From: Arthrobacter sp. H5
GTDB lineage: Bacteria > Actinomycetota > Actinomycetes > Actinomycetales > Micrococcaceae
Direction of reading: 5' to 3'
Assembly (NCBI RefSeq): GCF_000520595.1
Contig: NZ_KI914978.1
Coordinates: forward strand, 141,114 to 184,510
Length of the DNA stretch: 43,397 nucleotides
The notes under the pieces are model-generated. The model was not told the DNA's origin. It made no database searches and saw nothing but the letters and a program-made list of their open reading frames with translations. Each line of letters opens with the position of its first letter. The first letter of the stretch is position 1. Below, one piece after another: positions 26,063 to 34,811 of the stretch. The translations under genes and the position numbers were made by a program.

Positions 26063-26896
26063 ATGCCGCCAAGCTTCGACGAGATGTTGCTCTGTCCGGT
26101 GTGCTCCGCCAATCTGCGGGGCAGCGGTACGCGGAGGCTGGAATGCGGCGCCGGGCATCGATTCGATGCGGCGAGGCAGGGATACTTCAACCTGCTGTCC
26201 GGCCGTGGAACCGGATTCACCCCGGATTCCGCCGCCATGGTCCAGGCGAGAATCGATTTTCTGGCACGCGGCCATTATCAACCGTTGGCGGATACGGTTG
26301 CGGAAGCCGTGGTGGCACACGTCGGCCGGGAGCCGGTGATTCTCGACGCGGGCGCCGGGACGGGTTACTACCTCGATTCGGTGCTCAGGCGGACCCACGC
26401 CGCCCGGCCAATCGCGCTGGACATTTCGAAATTCGCCCTGCGGCGGGTTGCCAAAGCCATTCCCGACGGCGTCAGCCTGGTCTGGGATGTGTGGCGCACC
26501 TTGCCAGTGGCTGACCAGTGCGTGGATGCCACACTGAACGTATTTGCTCCCCGGAACGGGCCTGAGTTCCACAGAGTCACACGGGCGGGAGGAATTCTGG
26601 TGGTCGCCACTCCCCTGCCCGGGCATCTCCGTGAAATTCGCGAGGCTTTCTCAATGTTGGGAATCCGGCAGGATAAGGCCGCGGACGTTGCGCAGGGACT
26701 GGATGGATTGTTCGAGCGGCAGGCTCTTGCCCGTGTTGAGTTCACAATGAACCTGACGCCCGGCGACGCACTGAACGTTGCGCTGATGGGCCCGGCCGGC
26801 CACCACGCGGAGCGTGTGGCCCGGCAGCCGGACCTGCACGACGGCGTAGCGGTTACGGCAGCGTTCACTGTCCAGACCTTCCGGCGGAAAGCGTAG
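26063..26896 (+). CDS. 23S rRNA guanine-N1 methyltransferase, RlmA/TlrB family
   Basis: 277 residues. The N-terminal zinc-finger has C11, C14, C28 and H32 (LLCPVCSANL...CGAGHRFD), followed by ARQGYFNLL, the RlmA signature. The SAM motif is ILDAGAGTGYYL (about 93-104). The later segments NVFAPRNGPEFHRV and GHLREIREA match the family. RlmA(I) methylates G745 and RlmA(II)/TlrB methylates G748 of 23S rRNA; the latter confers tylosin resistance together with RlmA-like partners. Actinobacterial housekeeping copies are common and the sequence does not tell which base is modified. Leaderless-looking start, divergent from the S9 peptidase. Confidence 0.85.
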   Translation: MPPSFDEMLLCPVCSANLRGSGTRRLECGAGHRFDAARQGYFNLLSGRGTGFTPDSAAMVQARIDFLARGHYQPLADTVAEAVVAHVGREPVILDAGAGTGYYLDSVLRRTHAARPIALDISKFALRRVAKAIPDGVSLVWDVWRTLPVADQCVDATLNVFAPRNGPEFHRVTRAGGILVVATPLPGHLREIREAFSMLGIRQDKAADVAQGLDGLFERQALARVEFTMNLTPGDALNVALMGPAGHHAERVARQPDLHDGVAVTAAFTVQTFRRKA

Positions 26897-27034
26897 AAGG
26901 CAACGACCCTGACACCAAGATTGCTTGCAATGTCATAACAGCGGGGGTGCAGCACTCAGGCGCCCTAGGTTATGCAGCTCGGTTTTGGCATGATGGAGGT
27001 AGGCATGTATCTGTCCTATCCAAAGGGGAGCGCA

Positions 27035-27514
27035 ATGTTTGACTGGCTTATCGAGAACGGCTGGATTCTCTGGCTTGTGCTGATGCTCGGACTCGCGGCG
27101 GTGGAGACCCTCACACTGGATCTCTTTTTCATCATGATGTCCATCGGAGCACTCGCGGCCCTTGCCGGAGCACTGTTCGGTGCGGCCTTCTTCCTTCAAG
27201 TCATAATATTCTGCGTGGTCTCGCTGATGATGGTCCTGCTGATCCGGCCACTCGCGTTGAAACACCTTAAGCGGGGAAACCCCGATCAACTCAGCAACAT
27301 TGACCGTCTGCTTGGTGAGCACGCGTTAACTCTCGAGCCTGTCACGGGCCTTTCAGGAACCGTAAAGATCGGCGGGGATACGTGGACCGCCCGAACGGCT
27401 GACGGGTCAAGCGTTCCTGCGGGGCAGCGCGTTGCAGTGTCACGCATAGATGGAGCCACGGCCGTGGTCAGCCCGGTCACCCATCCCGAAACCACTGAGT
27501 CAGGCGCCATTTAA
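27035..27514 (+). CDS. NfeD family protein
   Basis: 159 residues. Three or four hydrophobic helices near the N-terminus (about 8-70: WILWLVLMLGLAAVETLTLD, FFIMMSIGALAALAGA in parts) are followed by a soluble OB-fold domain (about 90-150: LSGTVKIGGDTWTA, QRVAVSRIDGATAVV). NfeD proteins partner SPFH proteins in membrane-domain organisation; the SPFH gene lies directly downstream. Two starts are possible: ATG 27035 after AGGGGAG (4 nt) and ATG 27005 after GGAGG (5 nt), the latter adding ten residues. TAGGTT at 26966-26971 is a candidate -10. I prefer 27035 because the family usually begins just before the first helix. Confidence 0.87.
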   Translation: MFDWLIENGWILWLVLMLGLAAVETLTLDLFFIMMSIGALAALAGALFGAAFFLQVIIFCVVSLMMVLLIRPLALKHLKRGNPDQLSNIDRLLGEHALTLEPVTGLSGTVKIGGDTWTARTADGSSVPAGQRVAVSRIDGATAVVSPVTHPETTESGAI

Positions 27515-27561
27515 GCAGCTGGAACAGTAGTGTCATCCAAGTAATCGATAAAAGGGGAAAC

Positions 27562-28497
27562 ATGCCAAGCGACGCCGGAGCAATCGGCCTGACGATAGTG
27601 CTCATAGTTCTCATCATTTTCGTGCTTATTGTGCTTGTGAAATCGGTGCGGATTGTTCCGCAAGCGCGGGCTGGCGTCGTAGAGCGTCTCGGAAAATACC
27701 AGCGCACGCTCCAACCTGGCCTGACCATCCTGATTCCGTTTGTCGACAGGCTGCTTCCCTTGCTGGACCTTCGCGAGCAGGTGGTTTCCTTCCCCCCACA
27801 GCCGGTCATCACCGAGGACAACTTGGTGGTGTCGATCGACACGGTGGTCTACTTCCAGGTTACGGATCCACGCGCCGCAACCTATGAAATTGCAAACTAC
27901 ATCCAGGCGGTTGAGCAACTGACCACCACCACACTCCGCAACGTGGTGGGTGGACTGAACCTGGAAGAAGCGCTGACCTCCCGCGACCAGATCAACGGAC
28001 AGCTCCGCGGTGTACTTGACGAGGCCACCGGCCGCTGGGGTATCCGCGTGTCCAGAGTCGAGCTGAAAGCCATCGATCCTCCCCTGTCCATCCAGGACTC
28101 CATGGAGAAGCAGATGCGTGCCGAACGTGACCGCCGGGCCGCAATCCTGACGGCTGAGGGCACCAAGCAGTCGCAGATCCTCACAGCCGAAGGCCAGCGC
28201 CAGGCGGCCATCCTCGCGGCGGAGGGTGACGCGAAGGCCGCAATTCTGCGCGCTGACGGAGAGTCGCAGGCCATCCAGAAGGTATTCGACGCAATCCACA
28301 AGGGGAACCCCACACAGAAACTGCTGGCCTACCAATACCTCCAGACCCTGCCCAAGCTGGCGAATGGCTCATCGAACAAGTTGTGGATCATCCCCAGCGA
28401 AGTTGGTGAAGCGCTCAAAGGTATTGGAAATGTCCTTGGCGACGCCACCGCTGATACAGCGCGTAATGACGAAACTGCGGGTACCGGACCGGTTTAG
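27562..28497 (+). CDS. SPFH domain / Band 7 family protein (QmcA-like)
   Basis: 311 residues. One N-terminal transmembrane segment (about 8-27) is followed by the SPFH domain (about 28-190: VPQARAGVVERLGKYQRTL, PFVDRL, YFQVTDPRAATYEI). A coiled-coil region of Glu-Ala-rich repeats (ILTAEGTKQSQ, ILTAEGQRQA, ILAAEGDAKA, ILRADGESQA) spans about 195-235. It is a stomatin/prohibitin-type scaffold that oligomerises at the membrane. The ATG has AAAAGGGGAA upstream. It forms an operon with NfeD 47 bp upstream, and a terminator follows at 28513. Confidence 0.93.
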   Translation: MPSDAGAIGLTIVLIVLIIFVLIVLVKSVRIVPQARAGVVERLGKYQRTLQPGLTILIPFVDRLLPLLDLREQVVSFPPQPVITEDNLVVSIDTVVYFQVTDPRAATYEIANYIQAVEQLTTTTLRNVVGGLNLEEALTSRDQINGQLRGVLDEATGRWGIRVSRVELKAIDPPLSIQDSMEKQMRAERDRRAAILTAEGTKQSQILTAEGQRQAAILAAEGDAKAAILRADGESQAIQKVFDAIHKGNPTQKLLAYQYLQTLPKLANGSSNKLWIIPSEVGEALKGIGNVLGDATADTARNDETAGTGPV

Positions 28498-28512
28498 TAG
28501 CCTCGTTCTCAT

Positions 28513-28543
28513 AGAGGAGGGCTCCCCTTGGGTGTCCTCCTCT
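28513..28543 (+). terminator. Terminator after the SPFH gene
   Basis: AGAGGAGG (28513-28520) pairs with CCTCCTCT (28536-28543), followed by GTTGATCTTT. It lies 15 nt after the stop. Confidence 0.7.
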
Positions 28544-28579
28544 GTTGATCTTTAATTACCGGCACAGCACACAAACGGG

Positions 28580-28585
28580 TATGAT
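28580..28585 (+). promoter_or_regulatory. Vegetative-type -10 upstream of rbpA
   Basis: TATGAT, five of six matches to TATAAT, with a poor -35 (TTACCG, 18 bp upstream). It would be a distal rbpA promoter. Confidence 0.4.
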
Positions 28586-28616
28586 TGGGTGTTTGCCGGG
28601 AAACCGGACAGGTCGG

Positions 28617-28642
28617 GGAACATTGCCGTTTTTTCCAGCGTT
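28617..28642 (+). promoter_or_regulatory. SigR-type promoter upstream of rbpA
   Basis: GGAAC (28617-28621), an 18-bp spacer, GTT (28640-28642). The Streptomyces oxidative-stress sigma factor SigR uses GGAAT-N18-GTT, and rbpA is a known member of its regulon. This predicts thiol-stress induction here. Confidence 0.5.
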
Positions 28643-28679
28643 ATACAACATGTGAGTCGCGGCTGACCACCGTGGTGAT

Positions 28680-28699
28680 GCGGATTGACAACAATCCGC
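28680..28699 (+). repeat. Hairpin in the rbpA leader
   Basis: GCGGATTG (28680-28687), loop ACAA, CAATCCGC (28692-28699), 55 nt before the rbpA ATG: a perfect 8-bp stem with a tetraloop in the predicted 5' UTR. Confidence 0.5.
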
Positions 28700-28753
28700 C
28701 ACAACAGAACGGCATCCTTTACCTTTGGGGTGCCACTTGAGTAGGGAGAGATC

Positions 28754-29101
28754 ATGAGCGACCGTAGCCTGCGGGGTATGCGTCTTGGTGCGCAAAGCAT
28801 GGAAACCGAGTCCGGTGTGGAGCCGGCACCCCGCCAGCGGATTGAATACCGCTGTGAGGACGGCGAGCGGGTTTTCGTCACGTTTGCCGCTGAAGCGGAG
28901 ATCCCTCCTGTCTGGGTTTCCAAGACCGGGAAAGAGGCGCTTCTCGTTGATGGGGAGCGTCCAGACAATTCCAACGACAAGCCAGTGCGCACGCACTGGG
29001 ACATGCTTCTAGAGCGCCGCTCAATGGATGAATTGGAGCAGATCCTTGAGGATCGGCTGAATATTCTCCGTGAGCGCAGGGGCGAGCGACGCTCGGCCTA
29101 A
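28754..29101 (+). CDS. rbpA: RNA polymerase-binding protein RbpA
   Basis: 115 residues. RbpA is an actinobacterial transcription factor that binds RNA polymerase and the principal sigma factor and stabilises the open complex. The N-terminal SDRSLRGMRLGAQSMETE and APRQ segments, the core domain EYRCEDGERVFVTFAAEAEIP with VWVSKTGKEALLVDG, the basic linker, and the sigma-interaction domain RTHWDMLLERRSMDELEQ are all present. The core here has one Cys (C35) and Ser in place of the usual second, so a zinc site is not complete. The ATG has GGGAGAG upstream. A vegetative -10 and a SigR-like promoter precede it. Confidence 0.96.
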   Translation: MSDRSLRGMRLGAQSMETESGVEPAPRQRIEYRCEDGERVFVTFAAEAEIPPVWVSKTGKEALLVDGERPDNSNDKPVRTHWDMLLERRSMDELEQILEDRLNILRERRGERRSA

Positions 29102-29115
29102 CACTTTGTCATGCA

Positions 29116-29151
29116 GTGCCCGGGACATCTCACGTCGAGGTTCCTGGGCAC
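29116..29151. terminator. Hairpin between convergent rbpA and ppm1
   Basis: GTGCCCGGGA (29116-29125) pairs with TCCTGGGCAC (29142-29151), with one G-U pair and a 16-nt loop, 14 nt after the rbpA stop. Confidence 0.6.
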
Positions 29152-29172
29152 AGCTCTTTAACACCGCCTCTA

Positions 29173-29895
29173 TTAGCGCCGCGTCAGTTTGCTCCACCGC
29201 GCGGCCAGACCCCATCGGGTGACATTGCCGATCGCCTCAAGCACAATGTTGCCGCTCATTTTGGAATCGCCGAACTCGCGCTCAACAAAGGTGATGGGGA
29301 CCTCAACTATCCGAAGACCAAGCTGCGCCACCCGGAATGTCATGTCCACCTGGAAGCCATAACCGACGGACTCCACCGTTGACAAGTCAACGCGTTCGAG
29401 CGTTTCCCGGCGGAAAGCGCGGTATCCGGCCGTGATATCGCGGACACCGATTCCCAGCATGACACGCGAGTAGGTGCTGCCCGCCTGTGAGAGCAGCTTT
29501 CGGTGCGACGGCCAGTTGACGACGCTTCCACCGGGAACCCAGCGGGATCCGATCACGAGATCCGCACTGTCCAGTGCGTCCAGCAGTGACTGTAGTTCCT
29601 CCGGTCGGTGCGAACCGTCTGCATCCATTTCAACCAGGACGTCATAGCCCTGGTCGAGTGCCCAGCGGAACCCCGCGATGTATGCGGCGCCCAGGCCGGC
29701 TTTCCCCTCCCGGTGCAGTACATGGATCTGTGAGTCAGCCTCTGCGCGCTCGGCGGCGAGTCCGCCGGTTCCGTCGGGGCTATTGTCGTCCACTATCAGG
29801 ACATCCGTGTGCGGAACCGCCCTGCGCAGACGGTCAAGAGTCCGTGGCAGGGATTCGAGCTCATTGAAGGTGGGAATGATGGTGACGGCACGCAC
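29173..29895 (-). CDS. ppm1: Polyprenol monophosphomannose synthase (GT2)
   Basis: 240 residues, a soluble glycosyltransferase domain without the C-terminal membrane part of eukaryotic DPM synthases. It transfers mannose from GDP-mannose to polyprenyl phosphate, the donor for extracytoplasmic mannosylation of lipoglycans and proteins. Motifs: IIPTFNELESL (6-16), IVDDNSPDGTG (34-44), AGLGAAYIAGF, EMDADGSH with the metal-binding DAD (91-93), GSRWVPGG, and GYRAFRRE. The GTG start has AAAGG 7 nt upstream. It is convergent with rbpA. On its 5' side lies a structured leader with terminator (30015-30254), which suggests regulated transcription of this gene. Confidence 0.93.
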   Translation of the reverse strand: MRAVTIIPTFNELESLPRTLDRLRRAVPHTDVLIVDDNSPDGTGGLAAERAEADSQIHVLHREGKAGLGAAYIAGFRWALDQGYDVLVEMDADGSHRPEELQSLLDALDSADLVIGSRWVPGGSVVNWPSHRKLLSQAGSTYSRVMLGIGVRDITAGYRAFRRETLERVDLSTVESVGYGFQVDMTFRVAQLGLRIVEVPITFVEREFGDSKMSGNIVLEAIGNVTRWGLAARWSKLTRR

Positions 29896-29993
29896 GCAGG
29901 AACCTTTCGTGGGACTGGGGATGCGCAGGGCGCAGATGGCCCGGGAACCTCCGGGACCAAGAAATCAGTCTATGGGACCGCACTGTGCGCACC

Positions 29994-30014
29994 TGCCTGA
30001 GGAGGCACGGCAGG
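29994..30014. repeat. Small hairpin between the leader terminator and ppm1
   Basis: On the plus strand CCTGCC and GGCAGG enclose the competing stem TGCCT-GAGG-AGGCA. It lies about 100-120 nt before the ppm1 start, directly after the U-run of the leader terminator. Confidence 0.4.
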
Positions 30015-30096
30015 AAAAATGGGTAGGTTCGTACGCCTTCGGGCCAGCAAGGGTCCACGGACCAATGCTGTTTTCTACTGACGCACGAACCTACCC
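30015..30096 (-). terminator. Branched intrinsic terminator of the ppm1 leader
   Basis: On the minus strand GGGTAGGTTCGT (30096-30085) pairs perfectly with ACGAACCTACCC (30032-30021); GC and GU pairs extend the stem to about 16 bp. Inside is a second stem, CAGCA (30070-30066) with TGCTG (30049-30045), with GGTC-CACG-GACC at its tip and a possible UUCG-loop mini-hairpin beside it. ATTTTT (30020-30015) follows directly, so it should act as an intrinsic terminator on the minus strand only. Confidence 0.7.
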
Positions 30097-30097
30097 G

Positions 30098-30142
30098 TTA
30101 TGAGTACCGAGTCCGCCGGCGCAAAGAAAACCCATCAGTCAC
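30098..30142 (-). CDS. Putative 14-residue leader peptide (uORF)
   Basis: GTG start with AGGGAG 8 nt upstream, encoding MTDGFSLRRRTRYS and ending in TAA at 30100-30098, one nucleotide before the terminator stem. Four of the 14 codons are Arg (CGC, CGG, CGG, CGG). An in-frame ATG at 30160 would give a 20-residue version but lacks a Shine-Dalgarno. The position is right for a leader peptide whose translation decides whether the downstream terminator folds: a ribosome paused on the last codons would cover the 5' arm. Two parts of this region can also pair elsewhere: 30125-30131 with 30070-30076 and 30107-30114 with 30176-30183. Function is inferred from architecture; coding is unproven. Confidence 0.45.
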   Translation of the reverse strand: MTDGFSLRRRTRYS

Positions 30143-30226
30143 GTGGTGGTCTCCCTGCATCGTTGCTGTGTGTGCGGTCTCGGCCAGGTTTATCCGTTGA
30201 AAGGATTTGCAACCCGTAGATCTAAA

Positions 30227-30254
30227 ATCTTACGTGCTGTGCAGGAACTGTCAA
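30227..30254 (-). promoter_or_regulatory. Strong promoter of the ppm1 leader transcript
   Basis: On the minus strand TTGACA (30254-30249), a 16-bp spacer and TAAGAT (30232-30227). It is the best -35/-10 pair in the window. Transcription would begin near 30220 and reach the U-run after about 205 nt. Confidence 0.6.
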
Positions 30255-30262
30255 CAGCGCTG

Positions 30263-30294
30263 TGACCTGCACAAACGTGCATTTGTGCAGGTCA
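30263..30294. terminator. Perfect 13-bp hairpin downstream of the amidohydrolase gene
   Basis: TGACCTGCACAAA (30263-30275), 6-nt loop, TTTGTGCAGGTCA (30282-30294). It lies 51 nt after the amidohydrolase stop and just upstream of the leader promoter, isolating the two transcription units. There is no T-run. Confidence 0.65.
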
Positions 30295-30344
30295 GAACCA
30301 TGTAGGCGGATGGAGTGGGATGTGCCGCCGCGATGCCGCTCAAG

Positions 30345-31994
30345 TCAGATACCAACCTCCGGTGCCCGATACAGGAGTTTTCCCCAATGAACTGTCTCGA
30401 GGCACCGGGGATTGGTCCCGGTATCCAGGGCAGGCAATAGCGGGGTGCCTGCCCGTGGATCCGTGCTCCAAGACTGGACACGGCTGTCGGGAGTCTGAAC
30501 CATCAGCTCGTCGATCTCCCACACGGCATAGGATGAGGGCGCGCCGGGAACAAGCTGCCCCAGCAGCGGGTGGTGTGAGCCGGTTGCCCGCCAACCCGCG
30601 CGGGTATGCGCGATGAAAGCGGCACGGGCGGAGATGCGTTCGTTTGGTGTACCGTGCTGCACGCAGGCGCGGACGGAATTCCAGGGGTCCAACGGAGTGA
30701 CCGGGCTGTCCGACCCAAGGCACAGGGGCACCCCGGCAGAGAGCATTGAACCAAATCGATTCATCGTGGTGTATCTGGTCGCGCCGAGGCGCTGTTCGTA
30801 TAGCGCACCCGGCCCACTCCACAGGGCATCGAAGGCAGGCTGCGCGCTGACGGTCACGCCGAAATGCACCAGCTGGCCAATGGCCCGGTCGTCGGCCATC
30901 TCCACGTGTTCCAGCCGGTGACGCGCACGTCGAACCGCTTCCAGACCGTTGGACGCGGCAACCTGTTCCAGACCTTCCAGCACGGTATCCAGGCCGGCAT
31001 CGCCGATGACATGGAAACCCGCCTGGACACCCGCCGTCGTCGTGACGGCCAGATGCGCTGCGACATCCTCCACGCTCAGGAAAGCCGACCCGGACTCGTG
31101 TGGCGCGTCCGTGTACGGTTCGCGCAGCGAGGCCGTGCGTGAACCGAGGGAGCCGTCCACGTTCAGGTCCCCGGCAAGCCCAAGAAGACGTCCATCAAAT
31201 GATGCAAGAACCGCCTGCAGTTCCTCCTCTGACCGCACAAGCTGACCCCAGTACGGCAGGACCTCGGGGACATTGCTGCCGAGTGAGAGCAGGTTGAGCA
31301 GATCGGACTCGGGCACAATGTGCGGCGCTGCCATCTCGGCGACAGCAACTATTCCCTGCGAGGCGGCGTGGCTCAGGGCTGCTTGCTGCAGATCCTGCCG
31401 CCGCCCGTCGCTGAAGTCCCTGGACGCAGTGCGCGCGGCTGTGTGTGCCTGACGCACAACAAAACCACTGTCCCAGCCCTCAAGCCTCTGCAGACCGAAG
31501 GATGCCGACATGGCCCCCGAGACTACGGCCGAGTGCACGTCGGCGCGGGCGAGATAGACATGGGCCCCTCTGGATGCTGCATCCAATTCGGCTGCACTGG
31601 GCGGCCTCCTCTCGGGCCACCGCGATTCATCCCAACCATGTCCAATGATCATTCCATCGACGTGCTTGGCTGCTGCCTCGACCTGCTGAAGAACCTGGGC
31701 AAGGCTTTCGGCATTGGAGAGATCGATCGACTCGAGGGCGAGGCCCGTCTCAGTGGTGTGCACGTGGGAGTCGACAAATCCGGGAGCTATCAGCGCGCCC
31801 TTTAGGTCCACCACCCGCATGGTGCCATCCTGGAGCGATTCAGCGGCATGCTCGGAGCCGACCCAGGCGATGGTGTCCCCGTCCACAAGCATGGCGGTGG
31901 CAAACGGATCAGCCGCGCTGTAGACCGAACCATTGCGGTACAGGATGGGACGCTGGACATCATGGGGCACGGTGGGAGTCTCTCTGAGGGGCAT
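30345..31994 (-). CDS. Amidohydrolase family 3 protein (YtcJ-like)
   Basis: 549 residues. A metal-dependent TIM-barrel hydrolase: GFVDSHVHTTETG (metal His 77 and 79), IGHGWDESRWPERRPPSAAELD in parts typical of the YtcJ/NfdA group, GDLNVDGSLGSRTA, AGFHVIGDAGLD (His), RHRLEHVEMAD (His), and LCLGSDSPVTPLDPW with the catalytic Asp. No signal peptide is seen. Relatives hydrolyse N-substituted formamides, imidazolones or other amides; the substrate is unknown. The ATG starts 3 nt after the helY stop, so it is translated from the helY mRNA. A perfect hairpin follows at 30263. Confidence 0.88.
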   Translation of the reverse strand: MPLRETPTVPHDVQRPILYRNGSVYSAADPFATAMLVDGDTIAWVGSEHAAESLQDGTMRVVDLKGALIAPGFVDSHVHTTETGLALESIDLSNAESLAQVLQQVEAAAKHVDGMIIGHGWDESRWPERRPPSAAELDAASRGAHVYLARADVHSAVVSGAMSASFGLQRLEGWDSGFVVRQAHTAARTASRDFSDGRRQDLQQAALSHAASQGIVAVAEMAAPHIVPESDLLNLLSLGSNVPEVLPYWGQLVRSEEELQAVLASFDGRLLGLAGDLNVDGSLGSRTASLREPYTDAPHESGSAFLSVEDVAAHLAVTTTAGVQAGFHVIGDAGLDTVLEGLEQVAASNGLEAVRRARHRLEHVEMADDRAIGQLVHFGVTVSAQPAFDALWSGPGALYEQRLGATRYTTMNRFGSMLSAGVPLCLGSDSPVTPLDPWNSVRACVQHGTPNERISARAAFIAHTRAGWRATGSHHPLLGQLVPGAPSSYAVWEIDELMVQTPDSRVQSWSTDPRAGTPLLPALDTGTNPRCLETVHWGKLLYRAPEVGI

Positions 31995-31997
31995 GGA

Positions 31998-34811
31998 CTA
32001 TTCAGTGACGGCAGAGTAGGCCACAACTCCGCGGCGTACCAAACCAATGGCTTCGCCGCACAGCCTGCGCAGCTGTGGCGGGAGATCGTGCACTTTTGCC
32101 AGCTGGTCGATCAGGTCAATGACCTGCTTTGCCCACCGTACAAAATCGCCGGCGGCAAGATCTGTGGACTTGAGGGAATTCTGCAGTGACTTACCGCTGG
32201 CCCACTTGTACATCGGCCAGATTAGACCAAGCTCGGGCTCGGCGGTTACCGTCAACCGCTGCTGCTCCTCAAGGTCGGTCAGCAGCGACCATTGGCGGAC
32301 CACGGTGTCGATCGCAGATTCCAGGGCCACGCTTGGCATTCTGGGGCGCAGTCCGCGCTCCTCGCGCTTCGCCTGAAAGACGAGGGCGGCCACCAGTGCT
32401 GCCAGTTCCACGGCGTCGAGATCTTCGAAGGCACCGTGCTCCAGACACAAGGCCACCAGCAGGTCCTTCTCGCCGTAGATCCTCCGCAGCCGCTGGCCCT
32501 GCGGCGTGACAGACTTCATACCAGGGGTGAGTGCTTCCAGGTACCCGTAGTGCGCCAGCACCTCGGATACCCGGTCAAACGTCTTGGCGATCGTATTCGT
32601 CCTGCCGCGGATCTGACCGGACAGACGGTCCGTTTCCCGACGCAGCTTCCACCAGCGTTCCGACCACCGGGCATGTTGCTCCCGGTCGCTGCAGCCATGG
32701 CACGGATGGGCCCGCAGCCGCCTGCGAAGCTCGGTAATTGCTTTCTCATGGCGGTCGATGCCCGCAGTGCGGAAGCCCTCGTCCCTCCCCCGTTGCGCGG
32801 GGCGCTGATCATGCAGTGCGTTGCGCAGCGACGAGGCCAGATCCCGCCTGTCCTTGGGTTTACGCGCGTCGAACTGCTTTGGGATCCGAATCCGTGAGAG
32901 GACCTCCACTGGACCGTCGAGGTCCTGGACACCAAGACGGCGCACCTGCTTCTCCAACGTGAGGACGGTCGGCCGGGGCTCCCGGGCAGTGTCCTTGGAG
33001 AGCACCACGGCAAAACCCTCCACGCGGCCGGCAGGCACATCGATCACGTCGCCTGGACGAAGGTTCTCCAGTGACAACGCGGCGGCCGATTTCTTGCTTC
33101 TGGCTCCCGCCTTGGCCGCCGTGGCTTCCAGATCAGTGAGTTCCCGCCGCAGCGCGGCGTACTCCCTGAAGTCACCAAGATGGCAGGTCATGGATTCCTC
33201 GTAGCCGCCCAGGGACTCTTCGCGGCTTCGCACCTGCCGGGCGAGACCAACCACTGAGCGGTCGGTCTGGAATTGGGCAAACGAGGTCTCCAGAATTTCG
33301 CGGGACCGGTCCTGGCCAAACTGCGCAATGAGATTGATGCTCATGTTGTACGTAGGCCGGAAACTGGAGTTCAGCGGGTAGGTCCGGCGGGATGCGAGAC
33401 CCGCTACAGCTCCGGGATCCGTACCCGGCTGCCACAGCACCACGGCATGGCCCTCGACATCGATTCCCCGGCGCCCCGCCCTGCCTGTCAGCTGCGTGTA
33501 CTCCCCTGCCGTGATGTTGACATGCGCTTCACCGTTGAACTTGTCCAGCTTCTCAAGCACCACCGATCTGGCAGGCATGTTCACACCCAGGGCCAGGGTC
33601 TCGGTGGCGAAGACAGCCTTCACCAGCCCCACTTCGAACAGCTTCTCCACCACCTCCTTGAAGGTTGGAAGCATGCCCGCATGGTGGGCAGCGAACCCGC
33701 GCAACAGTCCCTCCCGCCATGCCCAGAATCCAAGGATCTCCAGGTCATCCTCCGGGATGTCGAGCGCGGCCTCTTCAACCCGGCGTAGGATGAGCCCCCG
33801 CTCGTGCTCAGTTGTCAGCCACAGGCCGGCGTCAAGGCACTGGGTGACAGCGGCTTCGCAGCCGTTTCTTGAGAAGATGAAGGTTATTGCGGGAAGCAAA
33901 CCATTCCGGTCCAGTGCAGCAATAACCTGCGGCCTGCTTGCCCGCCGCACCCGTGAGACCTGCCCGGCCCGCTGCGGGTTTCCACGACCCCTCCGGCCAC
34001 CTGCGCCCCACCGGGCCCGCTGGTTCAGCCGAAGCTCCGTGGTGGCCAGCTCCAACAGCTCGGGATTCACGTCATACCGGTCGTCCGCGCCGGTTGCTGA
34101 ACCCTCGGGCGCTGCTTCATCGAATGCCACTTCGCCAGCGAACAGGTCAAGCATGTCCTGTCCAACCATGACGTGCTGCCAGAGTGGAACCGGCCGATGT
34201 TCGGAGACGATGACGTCCGTGTGTCCACGCACGGTGTCGAGCCACGCACCAAATTCCTCTGCGTTGGACACCGTTGCGCTCAGCGATACCAGCCGCACTT
34301 CGGTGGGAAGGTGGATGATCACTTCTTCCCAAACGGCTCCGCGGAAGCGGTCAGCCAGGTAGTGCACCTCGTCCATCACCACGTAGCCCAGATCATTCAG
34401 GGTGTCCGAGTTTGCGTACAGCATGTTGCGCAGGACTTCAGTGGTCATCACGACGACGGCGGCATCAGGGTTGATACTCGTGTCACCGGTGAGCAGGCCT
34501 ACCCTGTCCGCACCATGGATAGCGGAGAGTTCGGCATACTTCTGGTTGCTGAGAGCCTTGATGGGGGTGGTGTAGAACGCCTTCAGATTGTCGGCAAGTG
34601 CCATAAAGATGGCAAACTCACCCACCACCGTTTTGCCCGCGCCCGTGGGCGCCGCCACCAGCACTCCCCTGCCCGCTTCAAGCGATACGCAGGATTCACG
34701 CTGGAAGTCGTCGAGATCGAATCCGAGGCTTTGCTCAAACTGGTGCAGCCGCGTCCTCGAATGATCGTTGCGTGCCCGCGCGGCCTGGTACTGCTCGGCT
34801 GGGGAGGTCAT
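31998..34811 (-). CDS. helY: DEAD/DEAH box RNA helicase, Ski2/Mtr4-like
   Basis: 937 residues, standard for actinobacterial HelY. Motif I is APTGAGKT (54-61), motif Ia TTPIKALSNQK, motif II DEVH (147-150), motif III SATVSN, and in the second RecA domain FATETLALGVNMPA and motif VI QLTGRAGRRGID. A region rich in Arg and Gly (RWGAGGRRGRGNPQR) lies between the RecA domains. The C-terminal half has the DSHCT-type helical domain, with a segment HPCHGC before it. It is thought to act in RNA unwinding and turnover. TAGGCT 6 nt before the ATG implies leaderless expression, separate from tatC 51 bp upstream. Confidence 0.94.
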   Translation of the reverse strand: MTSPAEQYQAARARNDHSRTRLHQFEQSLGFDLDDFQRESCVSLEAGRGVLVAAPTGAGKTVVGEFAIFMALADNLKAFYTTPIKALSNQKYAELSAIHGADRVGLLTGDTSINPDAAVVVMTTEVLRNMLYANSDTLNDLGYVVMDEVHYLADRFRGAVWEEVIIHLPTEVRLVSLSATVSNAEEFGAWLDTVRGHTDVIVSEHRPVPLWQHVMVGQDMLDLFAGEVAFDEAAPEGSATGADDRYDVNPELLELATTELRLNQRARWGAGGRRGRGNPQRAGQVSRVRRASRPQVIAALDRNGLLPAITFIFSRNGCEAAVTQCLDAGLWLTTEHERGLILRRVEEAALDIPEDDLEILGFWAWREGLLRGFAAHHAGMLPTFKEVVEKLFEVGLVKAVFATETLALGVNMPARSVVLEKLDKFNGEAHVNITAGEYTQLTGRAGRRGIDVEGHAVVLWQPGTDPGAVAGLASRRTYPLNSSFRPTYNMSINLIAQFGQDRSREILETSFAQFQTDRSVVGLARQVRSREESLGGYEESMTCHLGDFREYAALRRELTDLEATAAKAGARSKKSAAALSLENLRPGDVIDVPAGRVEGFAVVLSKDTAREPRPTVLTLEKQVRRLGVQDLDGPVEVLSRIRIPKQFDARKPKDRRDLASSLRNALHDQRPAQRGRDEGFRTAGIDRHEKAITELRRRLRAHPCHGCSDREQHARWSERWWKLRRETDRLSGQIRGRTNTIAKTFDRVSEVLAHYGYLEALTPGMKSVTPQGQRLRRIYGEKDLLVALCLEHGAFEDLDAVELAALVAALVFQAKREERGLRPRMPSVALESAIDTVVRQWSLLTDLEEQQRLTVTAEPELGLIWPMYKWASGKSLQNSLKSTDLAAGDFVRWAKQVIDLIDQLAKVHDLPPQLRRLCGEAIGLVRRGVVAYSAVTE

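Follow-up and report, generated by a model that had tools for sequence, protein, structure and literature searches.

A putative stand-alone structured RNA encoded upstream of lnt or ppm1 in Arthrobacter sp. H5 and other actinobacteria

The minus strand of the analysed stretch of the Arthrobacter sp. H5 genome (contig NZ_KI914978.1; 43,397 nt, hereafter the window) probably carries, at positions 30222-30021, a stand-alone gene for a structured noncoding RNA about 200 nt long, the transcription of which is predicted from sequence features. The existence of a stand-alone gene is the firm part of the proposal. The fold, the covariation, the promoter pattern, the distribution and the independence from any small open reading frame (ORF) are supported by the computation. 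The minus strand at 30294-30021 carries a dyad, a promoter, a small hairpin, the pairing CCGAGACC/GGACTCGG, a long terminal hairpin and the motif ATTTTT. The conserved unit begins further upstream than in the original prediction, namely at the 32-bp dyad (30294-30263). The element is preceded by an amidohydrolase-like gene (31994-30345), and the next gene on the strand is a ppm1-like ORF (29173-29895, minus strand), whose product finds the gene following the RNA in relatives. The name ppm1 and those of the other neighbours, in part taken from the original prediction, are used here as our assumption; gene names were transferred between loci by tblastn.

The folding energy of a 210-nt stretch was -86.3 kcal/mol (z = -4.82), and none of the 200 shuffled sequences was as stable. 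The modelled RNA (30021-30222, minus strand) has a predicted start about 7 nt after the -10 box, and its 3' end was taken to be the end of the terminal hairpin, P4. The small 5' hairpin claimed previously is present in the window as P1 (30185-30216, minus strand), with 95.2% of the cells paired in its outer helix (helix 1). It is followed by the P2 domain (30106-30184, minus strand), which is closed by CCGAGACC/GGACTCGG (helix 3; 90.8% of cells paired, four of seven pairs changed on both sides). This pairing had been considered one of two alternative states. The pairing does exist, but it is no alternative to the terminal hairpin, since both are contained in the same minimum-energy fold and form helices of one covarying structure. 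P4 (30021-30096, minus strand) ends the RNA model, and in the window it is followed by ATTTTT as had been described. Its outer stem (helix 7; 96.6% of cells paired), formerly given as 12 bp, is formed by 17 consecutive pairs including G-U (30096-30080 with 30037-30021). The proposed search for compensatory changes in this stem revealed that 11 of the 17 pairs were changed on both sides among 28 aligned sequences. P4 was not listed by a terminator pattern scan of the window because its loop is longer than the scan allows.

Covariation was evaluated in two alignments. In the alignment of 28 sequences of the genus, the structure of 57 pairs had 89.6% of its cells paired vs 80.3% after shuffling, and changes on both sides were found in 35 pairs and 196 cells (24.4 and 76.0, respectively, in shuffled alignments). 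The covariation score was 0.401, compared with 0.242 for shuffled alignments and at most 0.135 with slid partners. For P4, 74 of 198 class-wide matches were kept after the removal of near-duplicates, 18 loci without the looser pattern being left out. The score of these dereplicated hairpins was 0.603 vs 0.232 shuffled and 0.058-0.196 slid, with 492 double-change cells vs 209.5, while the count of pairs changed on both sides in the 74 sequences was not above that of shuffles (23 vs 22.6). G-U cells outnumbered A-C cells in both alignments (177 vs 45 in the genus and 188 vs 83 in the P4 alignment), and this excess points to RNA pairing on the minus strand.

The internal loop of P4 has the consensus CAGUAGAMAAC/GGYMCGAAG in the P4 model. 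In the window its 5' strand is CAGUAGAAAAC (30070-30080, minus strand) and its 3' strand is GGCCCGAAG (30037-30045, minus strand). The 28 genus sequences were collected with blastn, independently of the motif, and in them 7 of the 11 positions of CAGUAGAAAAC and 7 of the 9 positions of GGYMCGAAG are invariant; the loop letters of the 74-sequence P4 alignment are conserved partly by construction, which does not apply to the genus alignment. The signature of the sarcin-ricin (bulged-G) motif is AGUA opposite GAA between canonical pairs. These letters fit most sequences, with A-G-U variants in a few, and by its letters the loop may be sarcin-ricin-like. A resemblance between GGUCCGAAGG and the letters of Y RNA was also considered and was dropped due to a misfit of the opposite strand.

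The promoter named in the original prediction was found as described, with TTGACA at 30254-30249, a 16-nt spacer and TAAGAT at 30232-30227 of the minus strand. This sigma-70-like promoter (30227-30254) is conserved in the genus alignment and represents the sole 10-of-12 promoter match in the region 26500-34000, where three matches of 9 or more were found (1.4 +/- 1.4 in shuffles). Within the 350 nt that precede the hairpin loop, the pattern TTGAC-N15-19-TANNNT was located in 155 of 191 loci and in 7 of 1910 shuffles. Starts predicted in this way lie 83 to 207 nt before the loop (5th-95th percentile). Measured from this start to a point 26 nt beyond the motif, partial alignments gave lengths of 145-191 nt for ten Cellulomonadaceae-like loci, 244-246 nt for six loci of Streptosporangiales and 257-307 nt for eighteen of Streptomyces; a promoter match was absent from two further Streptomyces and seven Streptosporangiales/Nocardiopsis loci of this survey. 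In five loci of Micromonosporaceae (L115, L153, L167, L201 and L231), a nearly identical stretch continues from P4 into a GC-rich hairpin with a T-run, which suggests that the RNA may be longer there. The genus alignment shows one order of elements, namely the dyad, the promoter with its spacer, P1, P2, P4, a TATACT-like box and ppm1. The last box is aligned with TAGACT of the window (29967-29972, minus strand), a candidate -10 box of ppm1.

The dyad, of the form TGACCTGC-N16-GCAGGTCA, lies 8 nt upstream of the -35 box on the minus strand and is a candidate regulator site. A perfect copy was found at the element in 16 of the 18 genus genomes scanned; genome G010 has a one-mismatch copy at the element and a perfect copy elsewhere, and G016 has none. 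Copies elsewhere in these 18 genomes, with up to one mismatch, were as few as those of a control pattern. In genus genomes the 32-bp dyad is thus close to unique, as might be expected of the site of a protein with only one target. With up to two mismatches, the dyad was found in 24 of 134 loci, which include the window itself (L222) and some Arthrobacter. After duplicate removal (loci L061 and above), 20 remained, 19 of them with the dyad 8 nt and one with the dyad 9 nt before the -35 box. These loci include Frankiaceae (L117 and L142) and other families (L239, L242-L244, L251, L255 and L257), and shuffled sequences contained no dyad even at four mismatches. The 42 loci found at up to four mismatches include many from Streptomyces in which the arrangement differs and lies 30 nt from the -35 box; it was not counted as the dyad. 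The TGACCTGC-N16-GCAGGTCA form was not found in the Streptomyces loci examined. Instead of the dyad, Streptomyces loci such as L100, L113 and L118 have another conserved sequence (CGACCTGCGYATCCTC..GCTGACCAGG) about 30 nt before the -35 box. From the dyad, we infer a dedicated regulator that would bind it.

To evaluate the distribution of the element, several searches were combined. With blastn, it was found in 28 of 57 genomes, including its own, and all 28 are among the 35 genomes of the window's genus. Model R1 matched 37 of 38 genus genomes in the family search (28 used in building the model and 9 not; no match in G028). Across the family it matched 182 of 395 genomes, from 17 of 32 genera; in the order, where matches with E up to 0.01 were counted, it matched 45 of 297 genomes from 22 of 94 genera, many distant ones through P4 alone. 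The P4 model R2 matched 148 of the 296 genomes of the class, which represent 66 of 115 genera. In a phylum sample of 396 genomes it matched 19, and 16 of these belong to the class. The absence of R2 matches from half of the class sample and from 377 of the 396 phylum genomes counts against the stand-alone reading, as weak evidence because large genome searches apply stricter filters. A loop-pattern scan of named genomes yielded at least 119 stretches (L098-L216); among the matches listed, all titles are actinobacterial and the carriers include Streptomyces, Micromonospora and Kribbella. Most of the listed genomes have one match and G834, G1071 and G1156 have two. The second P4 match of G834 (L236) is weak (31.9 bits) and lies beside a strong one in the same genome. 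Most likely, a class-wide family includes the RNAs of Streptomyces, Micromonospora and Arthrobacter, the RNA of the window being its local member.

The Rfam search suggested in the original prediction gave no family at the gathering threshold (Rfam 15), either in the window or in 10 loci of other lineages, and membership of any Rfam family was rejected on these grounds. A relaxed scan around the element of the window gave three weak matches only (E 5.7-7.9), and three loci of other lineages were scanned in the same way; in all four short stretches the scores were well below the thresholds, the best being CsrB on the opposite strand (19.2 bits vs 71). Full-text literature searches listed no paper on an RNA at the lnt/ppm1 locus, and the RNA may still stand as an unlabelled entry in a Streptomyces sRNA table. 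The accessible part of the work by Moody et al. (PMC3765725) speaks of 105 sRNAs of S. coelicolor, and the RNA may be among these without an assigned function.

The neighbours of the RNA were surveyed in 207 loci including duplicates (197 distinct), 24 loci without the pattern being left out. Of the 190 distinct loci with room, 187 have ppm1 (101) or lnt (86) directly after the RNA. On the other side, 51 of 72 loci with room gave an amidohydrolase-like match upstream; these loci were obtained from 80 of the at least 119 pattern stretches. The constant downstream and varying upstream neighbour favour some link to lnt/ppm1. In L071, the upstream amidohydrolase gene is represented by two separate partial matches and may be diverged or degraded. 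In Streptomyces radiopugnans (L163), the hairpin is separated from lnt by about 1 kb and from ppm1 by about 2 kb, while ppm1 is directly next in the other Streptomyces examined.

This adjacency, which is tighter than a trans-acting RNA needs and counts against a stand-alone gene, is an argument for a cis-acting role within the lnt/ppm1 operon, as a leader or riboswitch-like element, in which read-through of P4, governed by P4 folding or a ligand, would set the expression of the mannosyl-lipid and lipoprotein-acylation genes. Of the 28 genus sequences, 27 have no T-run behind P4. This would permit such read-through and at the same time leaves the stand-alone RNA with no evident end signal there. 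However, promoter-like boxes were found between the hairpin and the gene. TATA[ACG]T occurs there in 35 of the 101 loci with ppm1 first (1.75 in shuffles), and in the 86 lnt loci TANNNT precedes the candidate lnt start by 6 nt in 24 and by 7 nt in 7, with at most 8 loci at any other spacing. This spacing is the layout of leaderless genes. Such boxes are recognised by the patterns in a minority of loci, which again counts against a stand-alone gene. In Micromonosporaceae, the GC-rich hairpin with a T-run, resembling an intrinsic terminator, is located after P4 and well before lnt, which speaks against a leader as well. In addition, the RNA is kept in three loci with a convergent next gene, namely L201 (Micromonospora sicca), L239 and L124, and it is not the leader of that gene there because the gene runs towards the RNA. 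L239, located far from the ends of its contig, is the sole clean case, since in L201 and L124 a contig end is less than 200 nt away, and this also weakens the stand-alone reading. A switch between two folds is not conserved in the 28 sequences either. Taken together, a leader appears unlikely and is outweighed by the stand-alone gene in our weighing. The more specific idea of the original prediction, ribosome-dependent attenuation of ppm1, can hardly hold. An ORF, two pairings and a U-run do occur together in the window, the ORF having 20 codons (from ATG, or from a GTG six codons later). Beyond the window, ATG is present in 0 of 27 other aligned sequences, GTG stands at the inner start in 4 of 28 and the frame is not kept. 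The second pairing, GTTTTCT/AGAAAAC, is complete in 1 of 28 sequences, and at least four T among the nine nucleotides after the stem were likewise found in 1 of 28, the window in both cases. Attenuation is not supported because ATG, the T-run and the complete second pairing are each confined to the window; in addition, many ppm1 and lnt genes are preceded, past the hairpin, by promoter-like boxes of their own. In related genomes, conservation had been expected for promoter, stem and U-run alike, and it was found for the first two and not for the U-run. The other option of the original prediction, a stand-alone RNA of about 200 nt, is backed by the compensatory changes, the conserved promoter and the three convergent loci.

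Two further readings concern the nature of the element itself. The conservation of the letters of the dyad, as in a protein-binding site, would agree with an untranscribed DNA-level element such as an operator or a cruciform, but the compensatory changes and the excess of G-U over A-C in the stems point to RNA pairing and make this highly improbable. Only slightly less improbable is an RNA that binds RNA polymerase in the manner of 6S or Ms1. It would share the similar size, the sigma-70-like promoter and the wide spread, and rbpA, whose product is presumably an RNA polymerase-binding protein, is located nearby. The 5' and 3' ends are, however, not paired with each other in the predicted fold, and Ms1 has different neighbours in the accessible part of its description (PMC9130861). 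In the portion of PMC11077062 available, two other RNAs, scr3559 (Ms1) and scr0792, are the only ones reported on RNA polymerase by RIP-seq in S. coelicolor, which speaks indirectly against polymerase binding, provided that the strain carries the present RNA.

For the preferred reading, a stand-alone RNA gene, the following mechanism can be assumed. A dedicated regulator would bind the dyad and control the sigma-70-like promoter, and the transcript would fold into P1, the P2 domain and P4, ending at or soon after P4. The free RNA would then act through P4, with the conserved, by its letters sarcin-ricin-like internal loop docking a partner, either a protein or a second RNA. A docking RNA is our best guess for the molecular role, and protein docking through P4 is a tentative suggestion. 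We infer the transcription, both ends of the RNA, the regulator, the partner and the cellular role from the features described above. The fullest version, in which a class-wide RNA with its own near-unique dyad regulator and a sarcin-ricin-like docking loop forms part of a so far undescribed ribonucleoprotein tied to lipoprotein maturation and envelope mannosylation (lnt/ppm1), is rather doubtful as a whole. If real, the RNA, with matches in half of the genomes sampled from a class to which the main antibiotic producers belong, would be among the most widely conserved actinomycete noncoding RNAs without a described function. Direct handles on it are provided by the models, by the letters of the loop and by the dyad.

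A comparison with known systems indicated partial likeness in each case. Like riboswitches and structured leaders, the RNA has a conserved fold and an invariant internal loop and lies upstream of one operon type; unlike them, it is often followed by genes with promoter-like boxes of their own, and neither a terminator nor a switch is conserved. It shares with 6S RNA the character of a single-copy structured RNA with a long hairpin, whereas the closing stem that joins the ends of 6S RNA around a large central bubble is absent from the predicted fold and the consensus, and no Rfam match was obtained. CoRP of Corynebacterium glutamicum is likewise a recently found actinobacterial RNA of one lineage; it differs in its length of 516 nt and its position between tRNA genes, and its homologues are reported within Corynebacterium only, as far as the accessible part of PMC11077062 goes. 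Ms1 (mycobacteria; scr3559 in S. coelicolor), reported in many genera in the available part of PMC9130861, is also a stand-alone structured actinobacterial RNA of about 200-300 nt, as proposed here. According to the same part of that source, its neighbours are a HAD hydrolase and an oxidoreductase, whereas the RNA described here has lnt or ppm1 downstream and mostly an amidohydrolase upstream.
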